This document shows positions 1,385 to 52,950 of a stretch of 61,923 nucleotides of DNA, in pieces; the stretch's first letter is position 1; each line of letters opens with the position of its first letter. The position numbers and the translations under genes were made by a program. This DNA is from Sulfuricurvum sp. Its GTDB lineage: Bacteria; Campylobacterota; Campylobacteria; Campylobacterales; Sulfurimonadaceae. The notes beneath the pieces were generated by a model, which saw nothing but the letters and a program-made list of their open reading frames with translations, made no database searches and was not told where the DNA came from. The stretch lies in the NCBI GenBank assembly GCA_020721585.1, contig DYMK01000004.1:96786-158708 (forward strand), given 5' to 3'.

Positions 1385-1900
1385 ATGGCAAAAGTAGGTA
1401 TTTTTTTCGGAAGCAGCAGCGGAGTGACACGCGGGGCAGCGGAGCTTTTAGCCGAGGAATTCAAAGGATCTGAACTCATCGATATGGAAGAAGATTTTGA
1501 TGGGATTGAGCAATTTGAGGATTTTGATGTCTTGCTCATTGGGTCTTCGACATGGGGTCAGGGGGATCCTCAACGCGATTGGGTCGATCCGTTGTATGAG
1601 CTTAGTAACGATCAGCCCGATATGAGCGGTAAAAAAGTGGCGTTTTTTGGTGCGGGGGATCAAGACAAACATGGTGAACATTTTGTAAGTGCGTTGGGGA
1701 AAATGCACGATTTGTTCACCTCATTGGGGGCAAGTGCGTATGGATTTACCTCTACCCAAGGGTATACGTATGAATTTTCGTTGGCAGAACGCGAGGGAAA
1801 ATTGTGCGGTTTGGGGATCGATGATGTCAATCAAGAAGATTTGACTCAAGAACGGGTGAGTGCATGGGCAGTGCAACTCAAAACTGAGATGGGACTGTAG
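1385..1900 (+). CDS. nifF: Flavodoxin, probable electron donor to nitrogenase
   Basis: A 171-residue long-chain flavodoxin. The FMN phosphate loop is at residues 7-13 (GSSSGVT, in place of the usual TxTGxT). The isoalloxazine-flanking loops are around SSTWGQGD near residue 56-63 and FGAGDQDKHGEHF near residue 92-104, followed by the TQGYTYEFS segment. Flavodoxins in nif operons pass electrons to the Fe protein, so nifF is the likely role, although a housekeeping flavodoxin cannot be excluded from sequence alone. The ATG at 1385 is chosen because AGGAGG lies just upstream (1374-1379); a further in-frame ATG at 1334 would overlap the previous gene. Confidence 0.9.
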   Translation: MAKVGIFFGSSSGVTRGAAELLAEEFKGSELIDMEEDFDGIEQFEDFDVLLIGSSTWGQGDPQRDWVDPLYELSNDQPDMSGKKVAFFGAGDQDKHGEHFVSALGKMHDLFTSLGASAYGFTSTQGYTYEFSLAEREGKLCGLGIDDVNQEDLTQERVSAWAVQLKTEMGL

Positions 1901-1914
1901 AGTCAAAATTGCAT
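1898..1914 (+). promoter_or_regulatory. Sigma-54-like promoter upstream of nifW (AG-N10-GC type)
   Basis: The 17-base string TAGAGTCAAAATTGCAT overlaps the flavodoxin stop codon. It has sigma-54 spacing (two bases, 10 bases, GC) but AG replaces the usual GG of the -24 element. The same form precedes rpoN, the PII gene, nifU and nifH. The predicted start, near 1924, leaves a leader of about 16 bases containing the TAAGGAG ribosome site of nifW. Confidence 0.55.
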
Positions 1915-1939
1915 ACGCAAACACAGTAAGGAGCATACG

Positions 1940-2314
1940 ATGGGAACGTTAGACGAATTTCAAAAAATTACCGATACCGAAGACTTTTTTGATTTTTTTG
2001 AGGTACCGTTTGATGAACGTCTGATTAACGCAAAACGGTTTCATATCATGAAAAAGTTTGGCGAATTGGTCGAAAAAGCGACAGGGCATGATATGGGAAG
2101 TGAGGTCAAACTCCTTGAATATTACCGTTTTGCCCTCATTACGGTCTACAAAAATTTTGAAAACGGCTACAGTCCCTCCGCAGCAGATGTGTGGGCGATG
2201 TTCGATAATCCCAGCGCGTGTGGGAGTTGCTCCACCTCCAGCAGCTGCAATGATGTAGAGGAGGTGAGTCATGGAGTCCACGCCTGCACCAGTCACAATA
2301 CCCTTAGTTTCTGA
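1940..2314 (+). CDS. nifW: NifW, nitrogenase stabilising/protective protein
   Basis: A 124-residue protein of the NifW family, which associates with the MoFe protein and helps protect it or its maturation under oxygen. The family core is DFFDFFEVPFDERLIN at residues 15-30, followed by RFHIMKKFG and LLEYYRFALITVYKNFE. The C-terminal tail is cysteine-rich (C94, C97, C103 and a later Cys near 115), a possible metal or Fe-S site; this is an observation only. A strong ribosome site (AAGGAG) lies 7 bases before the ATG. The last 44 bases overlap the start of nifZ. Confidence 0.92.
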   Translation: MGTLDEFQKITDTEDFFDFFEVPFDERLINAKRFHIMKKFGELVEKATGHDMGSEVKLLEYYRFALITVYKNFENGYSPSAADVWAMFDNPSACGSCSTSSSCNDVEEVSHGVHACTSHNTLSF

Positions 2315-2717
2315 GGAGGATATGCCCATTAACAATGAGGCACGCACAACCAACCTCTACAAAATGTCGACGAAAGATGAGATCCTCTCGGTATTTAGAA
2401 TCGGTCAGCGGGTGCGACTTATCAAAGCGATCCGTAACGATGGAACCTACCCTCACGCTCGGGTGGGGGATGTACTCATTGAAGCGGGGGCTGAGGGGTA
2501 TGTCCGTAAAATCGGCGACTTTTTGCAAACCATCCGCGTTTATGAGGTCACTTTCATCGAAGAGGGGCTTGCGTTTGGGTGTCGAGAAGCAGAACTTGAA
2601 GATGCTCTTGAAGAGGATGGATACGATGAAGTGGCGGAAGAACTTCAATGGCTCAAAGAACATCGTGCCGCTAGAGCTGCCCAAAAAGCAGCGCAATCTC
2701 AAGAAGAGGGGGAGTGA
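2271..2717 (+). CDS. nifZ: NifZ, P-cluster maturation protein
   Basis: A 148-residue member of the NifZ family, needed for full formation of the second P-cluster of the MoFe protein. The family core begins near residue 44: GQRVRLIKAIRNDGTYPHA, then GAEGYVRKIGDFLQ and YEVTFIEEG. The start at 2271 has an ideal AGAGGAGG ribosome site 6 bases upstream. A second in-frame ATG at 2322 has an AGGAGG only 2 bases away, probably too close, but would remove the overlap with nifW and yield a 131-residue protein. The C-terminal 30 residues are a charged Ala/Gln/Glu helix. Confidence 0.9.
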   Translation: MESTPAPVTIPLVSEEDMPINNEARTTNLYKMSTKDEILSVFRIGQRVRLIKAIRNDGTYPHARVGDVLIEAGAEGYVRKIGDFLQTIRVYEVTFIEEGLAFGCREAELEDALEEDGYDEVAEELQWLKEHRAARAAQKAAQSQEEGE

Positions 2718-2771
2718 TCAACCCTTTTTGGGATTTGTGCAGACTGTAGGGGAATTAAGAGGAGGTTCAAA

Positions 2772-3155
2772 ATGGTGAGTGTGATTTTTTGCGGCTTTGG
2801 CGAAAAACAAGATAAACGTGTTTTTGCCAAAACGGGCGATGTGTTATTACGAGTGGCGCACAGTAATGGTATTACCCTTGCATCCGATTGTAAAGATGGG
2901 ATGTGCGGTAGTTGTGCGGTTCGTATCGAAGAGATTTCAAATGATGAACAATTGGATTCAACCCTAGAGGATTATTCCTCCAAAGGTCAAGCGGTCTATA
3001 TGGACGATAAAGAGCTTGAAACGTTGATCAGTATGGGTGCCATCACGAAAAAAGAGGCGGAAATCGCACAACAATACAATCGTCCCACACCGGTACGTTT
3101 GGCGTGTCAATGCGCGATCAAAAATGCGTCGATATTGGTTAAACCGTATAACTAA
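2772..3155 (+). CDS. [2Fe-2S] ferredoxin, nif-associated
   Basis: A 127-residue plant/adrenodoxin-type ferredoxin. The cluster loop is C40-x4-C45-x2-C48 (SDCKDGMCGSCAV), with the fourth ligand at C112 in LACQC. Between them lies an unusually long insert of about 40 residues (residues 60-105), richer in acidic residues than typical 95-110 residue ferredoxins. It has a strong AGGAGG ribosome site 6 bases before the ATG. Its position between nifZ and rpoN suggests a role in electron supply to nitrogenase or its assembly, but partner specificity cannot be read from sequence. A second ferredoxin follows 62 bases downstream. Confidence 0.9.
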   Translation: MVSVIFCGFGEKQDKRVFAKTGDVLLRVAHSNGITLASDCKDGMCGSCAVRIEEISNDEQLDSTLEDYSSKGQAVYMDDKELETLISMGAITKKEAEIAQQYNRPTPVRLACQCAIKNASILVKPYN

Positions 3156-3217
3156 GACCAAATGGCGGAGTGGGTTTTACCCATAAAATCTATAAAATAA
3201 TACAATAAGGGGTTGAG

Positions 3218-3508
3218 ATGACAACACGTGTAGAAATTATAAATGACTTTTTGGCGATTAACGTCACAGCAGGAAAAACGATTCAAGACATCGTTGAAGC
3301 ATCCGGAAGCACACTTCCTTTTGGTTGCCGTGATGGCGAATGCGGTACGTGCGTCGTGATGATTGAATCAGGGATGGAATTTATGAGTCCCATCAATGAC
3401 AAAGAAAAAGCGGTGCTTAAAACCGTAGGAGAAACCAGCCCAAAAGCGCGCCTTGCGTGCCAAATGAAAGTGGTTGCTCCCAACGGATTGGTTCGTATCA
3501 AATACTAA
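3218..3508 (+). CDS. [2Fe-2S] ferredoxin, short form, nif-associated
   Basis: A compact 96-residue ferredoxin with ligands C37-x4-C42-x2-C45 (FGCRDGECGTCVV) and C81 (LACQM). It is related to the preceding ferredoxin but lacks its long insert, so the two are probably diverged duplicates with different partners. The ribosome site AAGGGG is 6 bases before the ATG. The spacer before it (3156-3217) holds a small hairpin (TGGGT/ACCCA at about 3171-3183) but no clear sigma-54 box, so it is probably co-transcribed with the upstream genes. Confidence 0.9.
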   Translation: MTTRVEIINDFLAINVTAGKTIQDIVEASGSTLPFGCRDGECGTCVVMIESGMEFMSPINDKEKAVLKTVGETSPKARLACQMKVVAPNGLVRIKY

Positions 3509-3616
3509 GACCAAACCTCACTACGCTCTTTCGTTTCACCTCAGGAGAGGATGGAACGAGGAAAATGCCCACTTTTTAATCATCCAAACACCCCCTTTAT
3601 CCCTATACTGTTACGT

Positions 3617-3633
3617 AAGAACAAAAAATGCAG
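3617..3633 (+). promoter_or_regulatory. Sigma-54-like promoter upstream of rpoN (AG-N10-GC type)
   Basis: The string AAGAACAAAAAATGCAG has AG, ten bases, then GC, as in the other four nif promoters; only its first base departs from their shared T. The start would be near 3643, leaving a leader of about 28 bases. If real, rpoN is autoregulated. It lies in a 162-base non-coding stretch with no other clear signal. Confidence 0.45.
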
Positions 3634-3670
3634 TTGATTGGAAACATGAACTTATTTTAGGGAAAATCTG

Positions 3671-4936
3671 ATGCAAACGACCCTTTCGTACAAACAAAAA
3701 CAACTCCCTCGATTGTCCATGCAGACGTGGTTGCCGCTGTTGCAATGCTCCTTAAATGAGTTAGAAAAACATCTCCAAGTTATTACCAATGAAAACCCTT
3801 GCCTTGAAGTCCAATCGGGATTTGAAGAGTCCAATGCCCAAGTAGGGGGAAGTTCCGCATACGGGGCGTTTCAAAATTATGTCTCCAATGCCTCCAGTGA
3901 CCAAATCGAGTGGCTGAGTATCTCCTCCGTCTCCCTCTACCAAAAGCTCGAAGAACAAATCGTTGCCCCCCTTTTCCCCACCCCCATCTCCCAAAAAATC
4001 GCTCGACAGATCATCTACTACATCAGCGATGAGGGGTATTTTGAGGGGAGTGTGGAGGAGATTGCCCTCCAATGCGATACCGATTCCCATACGGTCGAGC
4101 GGGTACGTCAACGTTTCGCCCATCTCGAACCCTCCGGCGTGGGGGCGTGCGATTACAAAGAGTCCTTTTTGTTCCAGCTCAACGATTACGATTTGGACGA
4201 TGAACTCTCTATTTTGTTGGGGGCGATGATTTTGCAATTCGATAAAATGGAAAAATTCATCAAACACCCCCGTCTTCATGATGCCAAACATATTTTGCAA
4301 CATTTTAAAAATCCCCCCGCACTGGAGTACATGGAACCTCAAGCGCAGATTATCCCCGATTTGTTTGTCGAATTTTCAGGCTCGGAGTTGACCATACGGA
4401 TCAATCACGCCTTTTACCCCGATTTGAAGGTGAGTATGATTGATAAATACGACAATTTCGCCCGCCAAAAATTCAAAGAGGCACGTGAATTGGTGAAGCT
4501 TTTGGATTTGCGCAAAGCAACGTTGTACAATATTGCCCTCGTCTTACTGGAAAAACAGTACGGGTTTTTTATGGGGGGAGAACTCAAACCTTTGCGTCTT
4601 CAAGATGTCGCCGATGAGCTAGGGTTTAACGAATCGACCATCTCCCGCGCCATTTCGGATAAGTATATTCAGACCGAACGGGGATTGTATCCGTTTAAAG
4701 AGTTTTTCTCCAATGCCATTGGGGAGGTCTCTACCTCAGAAATCAAACATTTTCTTCAACGGTTAGTCAATAGCGAAAACAAAGAAGATCCCTTTAGTGA
4801 CAAAATATTGCACGAGCGGATTGAGGGGCGTTTTGGGGTCAAAATGGTGCGCCGTGTTATTGCAAAATACCGTCAAGAACTCGATATCCCCTCCTACAAA
4901 GAGCGGGCGTTTTTATACAAGCTGGAGTTGCTGTAA
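3671..4936 (+). CDS. rpoN: RNA polymerase sigma-54 factor, nif-linked
   Basis: A 421-residue sigma-54. Region I (activator-responsive, Leu/Gln-rich: YKQKQLPRLSMQTWLPLLQCS) covers residues 7-45, followed by a short acidic linker, the core-binding domain (about 85-230) and the DNA-binding domain with a helix-turn-helix (LRLQDVADELGFNESTISR near 312-330). The RpoN box at 393-402 is VRRVIAKYRQ, versus the near-universal ARRTVAKYRE: four changes, although the Arg-Arg and AKYR core is retained. It directs transcription from -24/-12 promoters that need an enhancer-binding ATPase. Its place inside the nif block suggests a nif-dedicated copy in addition to the usual flagellar one; the second copy is not visible here. 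Convergent with the PII gene, 9 bases away. Confidence 0.95.
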   Translation: MQTTLSYKQKQLPRLSMQTWLPLLQCSLNELEKHLQVITNENPCLEVQSGFEESNAQVGGSSAYGAFQNYVSNASSDQIEWLSISSVSLYQKLEEQIVAPLFPTPISQKIARQIIYYISDEGYFEGSVEEIALQCDTDSHTVERVRQRFAHLEPSGVGACDYKESFLFQLNDYDLDDELSILLGAMILQFDKMEKFIKHPRLHDAKHILQHFKNPPALEYMEPQAQIIPDLFVEFSGSELTIRINHAFYPDLKVSMIDKYDNFARQKFKEARELVKLLDLRKATLYNIALVLLEKQYGFFMGGELKPLRLQDVADELGFNESTISRAISDKYIQTERGLYPFKEFFSNAIGEVSTSEIKHFLQRLVNSENKEDPFSDKILHERIEGRFGVKMVRRVIAKYRQELDIPSYKERAFLYKLELL

Positions 4937-4945
4937 AGCAACTTT

Positions 4946-5341
4946 CTAGCTTGATGGCGTATCCACCGCAGTGAAGTGGGTGTTGGTTTTAGTGCCGGTG
5001 CGGGGGATGGGTTGGGTTAATGCCGATTCATCTTTTTCCCCCGTACGGATGCGTTCCACCTCGACTACCGGAGTAACCCACATTTTCCCCGCACCGTGAC
5101 CCAAATCTTGGGTATTGGCACGAATCGATTCCATGGTGAGGGCTTTATGCTCCTCATCGGAGACGACAATGAGTAACATCACTTTGGGGAACAAATCGGG
5201 CGCATTGTTTTTTTCGGCGATCCCCAATGACCCTTTTCCGATCACGTCCATCACGGTGACCCCCTCAATCCCATTATCAAACAATTCTCGTAAAACATCA
5301 TTCAGACAGTGACGATTAAAAACAGCGGTAATTTGAAACAT
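4946..5341 (-). CDS. PII-family nitrogen regulator with degenerate T-loop
   Basis: A 131-residue PII-like protein (GlnB/GlnK/NifI superfamily), a trimeric sensor of 2-oxoglutarate, ATP and ADP. The beta-strand core (FQITAVFNRHCLNDVLREL, GIEGVTVMDVIGKG) and the C-terminal nucleotide region (GAGKMWVTPVVEVERIRTGE) are conserved. The T-loop (residues about 37-52) is short and lacks the usual GHTELYRGAEY stretch, so Tyr51, the uridylylation site, is absent. The C-terminus carries an extra Thr/Pro-rich tail of about 22 residues. It is divergent from nifU with its own nif-type promoter, which suggests regulation of nitrogenase or nif transcription. AAAGGA precedes the ATG. Confidence 0.85.
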   Translation of the reverse strand: MFQITAVFNRHCLNDVLRELFDNGIEGVTVMDVIGKGSLGIAEKNNAPDLFPKVMLLIVVSDEEHKALTMESIRANTQDLGHGAGKMWVTPVVEVERIRTGEKDESALTQPIPRTGTKTNTHFTAVDTPSS

Positions 5342-5376
5342 AATTGATCCTTTAATACGACAAGATATTCCACCGA

Positions 5377-5393
5377 CTGCATATCCCGTTCTA
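5377..5393 (-). promoter_or_regulatory. Sigma-54-like promoter of the PII gene (AG-N10-GC type)
   Basis: On the minus strand the string reads TAGAACGGGATATGCAG: AG, ten bases, GC. The predicted start near 5367 gives a leader of about 26 bases. It diverges from the matching nifU promoter at 5428-5444, and the palindrome at 5405-5418 lies between the two. Confidence 0.55.
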
Positions 5394-5404
5394 GCCTAAA
5401 AAGA

Positions 5405-5418
5405 TGACAAAAATGTCA
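5405..5418. promoter_or_regulatory. Palindromic operator between divergent PII and nifU promoters
   Basis: Perfect inverted repeat TGACA-AAAA-TGTCA, centred about 43-45 bases from each predicted start and thus midway between the two promoters. A similar 14-mer, TGACAAATTTGTAG, lies about 83 bases upstream of the predicted nifH start (52300-52313). The binding protein is unknown. It is not the classical NifA site (TGT-N10-ACA). Confidence 0.45.
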
Positions 5419-5427
5419 GGATGCGAA

Positions 5428-5444
5428 TAGAATAGGGTTTGCAT
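5428..5444 (+). promoter_or_regulatory. Sigma-54-like promoter of nifU (AG-N10-GC type)
   Basis: TAGAATAGGGTTTGCAT: AG, ten bases, GC. It is nearly identical in both boxes to the nifH promoter (TAGAATACCCCTTGCAT). The predicted start near 5454 gives a 25-base leader with the AAGGAG site of nifU. Confidence 0.65.
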
Positions 5445-5478: not shown

Positions 5479-6456
5479 ATGGCACGTGACACCCTCATCG
5501 GCGGAGCATTATGGGAAGAGTACTCCAACGAAGTACAACGACGGATGAACGATCCGATTAATATGGGGGAGATTACCCAAGAAGAGGCAGATGCTGCGGG
5601 GAAACAACTCATCATCGCCGATTTTGGGGCAGAGAGCTGTGGAGATGCGGTGCGACTGTACTGGATGATTGACCCTTCTACCGATGTGATCGTTAAAAGC
5701 CGATTCAAAAGTTTCGGGTGCGGTACGGCGATTGCCAGTTCGGACATGATGGCAGAGTTATGTATGAATAAAACGGTCGATGAAGCGCTCAAAATCACCA
5801 ACATTGATGTCGAAAAAGCGTTACGGGATGAGGAAGACATTCCCGCCGTTCCGGGGCAAAAGATGCACTGTTCGGTCATGGCGTACGATGTGATCAAAAA
5901 AGCAGCTTCGATCTACAAAGGGGTCGATATGGCGGAATTTGAGACCGAATTTATCATCTGTGAATGCGCCCGTGTGAGTTTGGAGACGCTCAAAGAGGTG
6001 ATCCGTCTCAATAAGCTAGAGACCATTGCGCAAATCACCGACTACACCAAAGCAGGAGGCTTTTGTAAATCGTGTATCCAAAGCGGGGGACATGAGAAAA
6101 AAGAGGTGTATTTGGTCGATCTCCTCGCTGAAGTGAAAGAAGAACTCAAAAAAGAGGCGATCAGCAAAAAGATCAAAGAGGCCAAAGGGGATGGAAACTT
6201 CAATGCGATGAGTTTGGTACAAAAACTCCGCAGCATCGAATCAATCCTCGAAGAGTACATCCGCCCAACCCTCAAAGCCGATCATGGGGATGTCGAAGTG
6301 ATCGACCTTAAAGAAGTAGAGGGGGAACACGAACTTTATATCCAATATAAGGGGGAGTGTATGAGCTGTTCGATGAACACCACGACGACGCTTGCGGGGA
6401 TGCAGGATATGCTCAATTTCAAACTCAAAGCCAATTTACGGGTCATGGTGGTCTAA
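5479..6456 (+). CDS. nifU: NifU, Fe-S cluster scaffold for nitrogenase
   Basis: A 325-residue three-domain NifU. The N-terminal IscU-like domain carries the transient-cluster cysteines C54, C81 and C131. The central BFD-like [2Fe-2S] domain has C161, C163, C196 and C199. The C-terminal Nfu domain has the C294-x2-C297 pair (GECMSCS). It assembles [2Fe-2S] and [4Fe-4S] clusters for NifH, NifB and other nif proteins from sulfur normally supplied by NifS; no nifS is present in this window. First gene of an operon with its own sigma-54-like promoter. AAGGAG precedes the ATG, and the stop overlaps the next start (TAATG). Confidence 0.97.
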   Translation: MARDTLIGGALWEEYSNEVQRRMNDPINMGEITQEEADAAGKQLIIADFGAESCGDAVRLYWMIDPSTDVIVKSRFKSFGCGTAIASSDMMAELCMNKTVDEALKITNIDVEKALRDEEDIPAVPGQKMHCSVMAYDVIKKAASIYKGVDMAEFETEFIICECARVSLETLKEVIRLNKLETIAQITDYTKAGGFCKSCIQSGGHEKKEVYLVDLLAEVKEELKKEAISKKIKEAKGDGNFNAMSLVQKLRSIESILEEYIRPTLKADHGDVEVIDLKEVEGEHELYIQYKGECMSCSMNTTTTLAGMQDMLNFKLKANLRVMVV

Positions 6457-51284: not shown

Positions 51285-52250
<966 letters not shown>

Positions 52251-52416: not shown

Positions 52417-52950
52417 CTACCAAAACTTCTCAATCTCGATTAGCCCTACATCCCCCTCATAATCTCGTGCACTGCTGTATCTCCAATGTTTTGCTTCATC
52501 GACGTAGCCTCTCTTGATGGGGTTCTGATGGATATAGTTGATCCGCTCCACCATCATCGCATCGTTTTGAATTAACTTAGGAGCTATCCCCTCTTGCCAG
52601 AGTTGATATTCACGGTCATCTTTATGGGCTTTTTTATAAAATGAAAGTTGATCGAGTATGGTAGTGACGTTTCGCATTTTGAGGAGATCGAGTATCTGTC
52701 GCGCGGTATATTTTTTAAAACTCTCCATACTTTTGGAGAGATCATCACTTTGGACGATTAGATGCAAATGGTTTTCGAGGATAACGTAAGCGTAGAGTTT
52801 GAGGTTATCGTGTTGTTGGAGATATTTCAGAGAATTAAAGATGATGTCGGTCGTTTCGGTACGGGTAAAAATCGGTATCCAGTGTAATACCGTGCAGGTG
52901 ATAAAATGAGGATAGGTCGGTTCGTGTATTTTGTATCTGCTTCTGCCCAT
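52417..52950 (-). mobile_element. REP-associated tyrosine transposase (RAYT, Y1/HUH family)
   Basis: A 177-residue Y1-type transposase of the RAYT (TnpA-REP) branch. The HUH motif is in VILENHLHLIVQS (H-L-H, near residue 61-68). The catalytic Tyr lies in the SMESFKKYTARQIL helix near residue 85-98. The WIPIF and YIHQNPIKRGYVDEAKHWRYSS segments are typical. RAYTs are single-copy domesticated relatives of IS200/IS605 transposases that process REP sequences; the gene is flanked by REP-like hairpins. No tnpB. A partial copy of its 5' end lies at 53517-53628. Confidence 0.92.

Follow-up and report, generated by a model that had tools for sequence, protein, structure and literature searches.

Sigma-54 promoter-like sites in the nif blocks

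The window analyzed here, a stretch of 61,923 nucleotides (G000:C22:96786-158708), belongs to the 2.29-Mb assembly of a Sulfuricurvum genome (G000) and carries nitrogen fixation (nif) genes together with a gene for sigma-54 (RpoN). Encoded on the plus strand are nifW (1940-2314; Pfam NifW, 4.3e-18), rpoN for a nif-specific sigma-54 paralogue (3671-4936; Sigma54_DBD, 4.6e-45) and nifU (5479-6456; NifU_N, 1.3e-38); the minus strand carries glnB for a PII-type regulator (4946-5341; P-II, 3.2e-19) and nifH (51285-52199; Fer4_NifH, 8.6e-116). Upstream of these genes lie five sites that resemble sigma-54 promoters and have A in place of the leading G of the -24 element. Sigma-54 promoters are opened by enhancer-binding proteins, and their -24 element is read by arginines of the RpoN box. 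The GG at -24 is the most dependable mark of such promoters, is almost never dropped and is built into promoter-search matrices. The two G of this element are numbered here as -25 and -24, and the finding is thus a change from G to A at -25.

The original prediction had claimed that five transcription-unit starts in the nif blocks share the layout AG-N10-GC with A as the first base, and this was confirmed at all five coordinates. The putative nifW promoter TAGAGTCAAAATTGCAT (1898-1914, plus strand) is near-identical in six congeners. The site ahead of rpoN, AAGAACAAAAAATGCAG (3617-3633, plus strand), was found as a pattern match, and AG is present at the same promoter in 24 of the 25 other loci of the genus with a window-type rpoN. 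For glnB (TAGAACGGGATATGCAG, 5377-5393, minus strand) AG is found in the orthologues, and for nifU (TAGAATAGGGTTTGCAT, 5428-5444, plus strand) in most of them. The nifH site TAGAATACCCCTTGCAT (52234-52250, minus strand), likewise a pattern match, reads TAGAAC...TTGCA in every congener examined. Compared with the GG-N10-GC core of sigma-54 promoters, all five sites differ in the first G and keep the spacing and the GC; the ten-base distance from the G at -24 to the GC of the -12 element is also kept in the orthologous sites. The base following the GC (-11) is A at all five, and T in flagellar promoters. Between the end of the site and the start codon lie 25 (nifW), 37 (rpoN), 35 (glnB), 34 (nifU) and 34 (nifH) bases.

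The pattern AGARY-N5-WTGCA matches five times in the window, each time at one of these transcription-unit starts. In 100 dinucleotide shuffles it was found 1.06 times on average and four times at most, and none of the shuffles reached five matches, so that the AG form is not simply present at the level of random DNA. With AGAAY-N5-WTGCA, which leaves out the nifW site, four matches were obtained against 0.56 expected. The leading TAG of the nifW site doubles as the stop codon that ends the flavodoxin open reading frame before it (1334-1900); since its AG is thereby constrained by coding, this site is the weakest of the five, and it is nevertheless conserved almost letter for letter in six congeners.

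Two RpoN types and two promoter classes

The window copy is the only rpoN match in the whole G000 genome, and a flagellar (canonical) RpoN was not found there. All three domains of the window protein, for activator interaction, core binding and DNA binding (PF00309, PF04963 and PF04552), score above the cut-off. Its RpoN box region, VRRVIAKYRQE (residues 393-403; 4847-4879, plus strand), retains both arginines, R394 and R395, and the adjacent T396 is replaced by V; Q402 and E403 are specific to the clade. In the structure of the sigma-54 closed complex, R455 and R456 of the RpoN box contact the CTGGC element (PMC9770992). Among named records, those with 85-91% identity to the window protein are nearly all metagenome-assembled genomes (MAGs) of Sulfuricurvum, and a Sulfurimonas MAG shows 75%.

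Most Sulfuricurvum congeners carry two rpoN genes, one with the canonical box VRRTIAKYR and a nif-linked one with VRR[VL]IAKYRQELD[IV]P(S/P)YKER. Genomes that we call Sulfurimonas-like or Arcobacter-like were placed putatively; the nif RpoN of the Sulfurimonas-like genomes has S where Sulfuricurvum has V or L, which gives VRR[VLS]IAKYRQE for the nif type. The maximum-likelihood tree unites all nif RpoNs of the order in a single group (100/100) separate from the flagellar type, and within it the window protein belongs to a subclade of 30 members (support 100/98). Fifteen positions from residue 300 on, 398, 402, 403, 409 and 414 among them, separate this subclade from the nif RpoNs that use GG. 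The window protein thus qualifies as a specialized nif RpoN paralogue by its separate clade, its location in the nif cluster and the coexisting flagellar RpoN of the congeners, the flagellar copy being missing in G000. The replacement of T396 by V was rejected as the sole cause of the AG form, since AG-using Sulfurimonas-like genomes have S at this residue and G136 and G059 have S together with TGG. A single RpoN working with sloppy promoters was likewise dismissed, since the congeners carry two RpoN types and two promoter types.

To compare the two promoter types, the base at -25 was counted at intergenic GAAY-N5-WTGCA sites located upstream of genes. At the nif loci of 26 Sulfuricurvum genomes, including G000, it is A 57 times, C twice, G once and never T; at GAAY-N5-WTGCA sites elsewhere in the same DNA it is A 29, C 10, G 7 and T 4 times. 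The nif loci of Sulfurimonas-like genomes gave A 12, C 2 and G 0. Position -26 is variable in nif promoters, where all four bases occur. The resulting consensus for the genus is NAGAAY-N5-WTGCA for nif and TGGAAC-N5-TTGCT for flagellar promoters. Both classes are present within one genome, as 485 kb of the congener G029 show: sites ending in TGCA have A 9, C 2, G 1 and T 1 at -25, and those ending in TGCT have G 5 and A 1, with flagellar genes among the G sites (A or C versus G, Fisher p 0.004). A C at -25 is stably kept at the promoter of a nifS-like gene, TCGAAC (TCGAACAAATCTTGCA), which is identical in four Sulfuricurvum genomes (L165 10450, L373).

Genome-wide, the AG form was found 244 times in the 27 genomes with a nif rpoN, compared to 119 matches of the reversed control. 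Six congeners in which only the canonical rpoN was found (G014, G018, G021, G022, G031 and G033) gave 27 matches versus 23 in the control; a wider total of 37 versus 43 also took in two genomes with unassessed RpoN content and two in which none was found. Two AG matches on contig C15 fall within coding sequence. TGGAAC-N5-TTGCW is more frequent than its control across the genus, and individual sites recur; G000 has three matches to this pattern, none at a recurrent site. A chance origin of the sites is ruled out by the pattern counts in the window, the shuffles, the genome-wide counts and the -25 tallies at nif loci. The original prediction had named a nif-only distribution of the AG form as support; this form recurs at the nif loci of Sulfuricurvum and of most nif-bearing Sulfurimonas-like genomes and is absent from flagellar promoters.

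Position -25 and the flagellar RpoN

A nifH gene was found in 90 of 399 Campylobacterales genomes, and a recognizable nifH promoter could be read in 65 of these; none was recognized in the f15 and f17 genomes. An intact TGG-N10-GC is present at nifH in 20 of 31 genomes with one RpoN and in 1 of 34 with two (Fisher p 6e-8, not corrected for descent). Arcobacter-like and related genomes with one RpoN (twelve of f9, seven of f6) have TGGAAC-N5-NTGCA throughout, and an eighth f6 genome, G333, has GGG. Genomes of f20 with two RpoNs show CGGAAC, or AGG or TGG with GT replacing GC, Sulfurimonas-like genomes with the other nif RpoN show AGG or GGG with GT, and genomes with two RpoNs, one of the window type, have NAG. 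That lineages broke TGG-N10-GC at different bases is what insulation from the flagellar sigma-54 would produce. In two genomes, G258 and G319 (L250, L251), which are 99% complete and encode FliM, only a nif-type RpoN was found.

The window RpoN subclade itself includes genomes with GG, again read directly from the sequences. G413 and its relatives, G338 and G235 lack FliM and carry one RpoN each; their nifH promoter is GGGAAY, and their other nif promoters are a mixture of AG and GG. FliM was not found in G000 and is present in all 14 congeners tested, so that, with the congeners as a guide, motility was apparently lost recently in G000. AG is retained in G000 at nifH, nifU, glnB, rpoN and a peroxiredoxin-like gene, tpx, whereas the nifB promoter reads TGGAAC (TGGAACATCTTTTGCA) and that of the gene beside nifB AGGAAC (AGGAACAAAAATTGCA); the six congener orthologues of each all have A at -25. 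In a count over the orthologue table, two of the ten G000 promoters have G at -25, and none of the 63 from congeners does (p 0.017). The loss of the flagellum was not accepted as the driver of GG, as G345 combines FliM and a single RpoN with TGG; presence of the flagellar RpoN fits better.

We consider it probable that sigma-54 promoters of the nif regulon lie at the five sites, that the dedicated RpoN paralogue of the cluster uses them with activation by a NifA-type protein, and that the change at -25 is likely an insulation from the flagellar sigma-54. According to this model, the nif RpoN would transcribe the nif units from AG promoters opened by a NifA-type enhancer-binding protein. Replacement of the G at -25, by A in nearly all cases and by C in some, would together with A instead of T at -11 separate nif from flagellar promoters. 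Where two sigma-54 factors share a cell, selection would remove the TGG that the flagellar RpoN needs, a loss which the nif RpoN, altered in its RpoN box region, would tolerate. We infer that the sites serve as transcription start signals, that the nif RpoN uses the AG promoters and the flagellar RpoN does not, and that A is favored to prevent cross-use. The rule that fits best is that G is avoided at -25 in the presence of a flagellar RpoN and that the nif RpoN tolerates A, C or G.

Several observations weigh against this reading. The contrast between genomes with one and two RpoNs clusters by family, and its Fisher p of 6e-8 is therefore not a phylogenetic test; similarly, the GG users of the window clade (G413 with three relatives, G338 and G235) form one subclade and amount to one event. 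G059 has TGG at nifH despite two RpoNs, and nifU of the congener L066 has AGGAAT, that is GG. G258, G319 and G181 encode FliM and have AG promoters, yet their assemblies yielded no RpoN other than the nif one; an assembly gap, a recent loss or sigma-54-independent flagella would each explain this pattern. Finally, a pattern search found the NifA-type TGT-N10-ACA upstream of none of the five window promoters, and the enrichment of dyads upstream of AG sites is weak (7 observed, 3.95 expected).

A stricter version of the insulation model sees a mutually orthogonal pair, in which the nif RpoN reads AG-N10-GC through an altered -24 contact, the flagellar RpoN reads TGG-N10-GC and neither uses the promoters of the other; other lineages with two RpoNs would have escaped through C at -26, or through A or G at -26 with T at -12. 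We regard this version as tentative. Somewhat less likely still is a changed recognition code, by which the nif RpoN would actively prefer A at -25 through substitutions around the RpoN box (T396 to V, L or S, Q402, E403, Y/F409 and F414). A is strongly favored over C and T, beyond a mere avoidance of G, and this bias leaves room for a nif RpoN that prefers A rather than merely tolerating it; in addition, 15 clade-fixed C-terminal substitutions, several of them beside the RpoN-box arginines, split the AG-using from the GG-using nif RpoNs. The RpoNs of the G413 type, G338 and G235 have the same clade-fixed residues, yet GG at nifH, and the C at one nif promoter has been stably retained. GG at two nif promoters of G000 likewise tells against a nif RpoN that requires A. 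Of the modified recognition rule proposed in the original prediction, the nif-specific promoter class with A at -25 stands, and it goes together with a nif-only RpoN paralogue; that the rpoN is a paralogue and that G000 lacks the flagellar copy could not be recognized in that prediction. A strict rule is not supported in view of the C at the nifS-like gene, the GG in genomes of the same clade and the GG at nifB and its neighbor in G000.

That the base at -25 simply drifts, because the nif RpoN depends less on the -24 element, with A common through G to A mutation and inheritance, appears improbable to us. The altered RpoN box region, the free choice of base at -26 and the common ancestry of the promoters would agree with drift, which would not, in contrast, keep A near-invariant over a dozen unrelated nif promoters in at least two genera, with C rare and T only at doubtful sites. 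It is very hard to reconcile the data with another conserved nif operator of similar layout instead of a sigma-54 promoter: the G-N10-GC spacing and the distance to the start codon match the TGGAAC-N5-NTGCA nifH promoters of the Arcobacter-like relatives, some genomes have GG at the orthologous position and the nif cluster encodes its own rpoN.

Surroundings of the sites and relation to known systems

G000 encodes one strong match to sigma-54 activators, located outside the window. Read by eye, this protein shows GAF-like features, an AAA+ domain that contains GAFTDA, and a C-terminal part similar to Fis. The tpx gene (L152 5365-5913) is divergent from the gene for this NifA-type activator (L152 6056-7672; G000:C22 around 45.4-47.7 kb), and its AG promoter is conserved in Sulfuricurvum and in a Sulfurimonas-like genome; from this conservation, the nif regulon may extend to protection from oxidative stress. 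One AG promoter occurs twice, together with its surroundings, about 600 bases apart (L153 2068 and 2667; G000:C22:62053 and 62652), one copy ahead of a conserved gene of 70 amino acids and the other ahead of a start codon with a near-immediate stop, as if the segment had been doubled by an insertion. The palindrome TGACAAAAATGTCA (5405-5418), also present in L068 and L070, lies between the promoters of the divergent glnB and nifU genes, roughly 20 bases upstream of each, and is possibly a regulator site. Directly upstream of the nifH promoter an open reading frame for a Y1-type (IS200-like/REP-associated) transposase was found (52417-52950).

The division of paralogous sigma-54 factors between tasks is a known phenomenon, and the variant seen here would be the change in the -24 element. 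In Rhodobacter sphaeroides the promoters of RpoN1 (nitrogen) and RpoN2 (flagella) are told apart by a few bases (PMC3162934, PMC12316311). Two paralogues are likewise divided there between nitrogen and flagellar genes; however, the difference is reported at -11 only, whereas Sulfuricurvum changes the near-invariant -24 GG in addition to -11. For Bradyrhizobium japonicum, two promoter consensus sequences that differ at -12 have been reported (PMC3162934); it and Bradyrhizobium sp. DOA9 also have two rpoN copies, and the reported difference does not lie in the -24 element. The Campylobacter-type flagellar promoter TGGAAC-N5-TTGC, found at the flagellar genes of Sulfuricurvum, has the same G-N10-GC spacing and AAC-N5 core as the nif sites. 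The nif sites differ from it by A (or C) at -25, a free choice of base at -26, and A where it has T next to the GC. The nif promoters of Arcobacter-like Campylobacterales have a nif RpoN clade related to that of Sulfuricurvum and likewise TGCA at -12. They retain TGG from -26 to -24, however, and only one RpoN is seen in their genomes. In the open-licence papers searched we found no report of a -24 element change accompanying a nif RpoN, nor of Sulfuricurvum or Sulfurimonas nif promoters, which is weak evidence of absence.

Promoter searches based on the usual matrices would miss or underscore the nif regulon of these common sulfur-oxidizing diazotrophs. The case illustrates how two copies of a regulator that share a conserved DNA contact can be separated, and since some relatives have the second factor and others lack it, the question of this separation is testable with a few mutations. 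An orthogonal sigma-54 pair, if true, would be of practical use for engineering nif.

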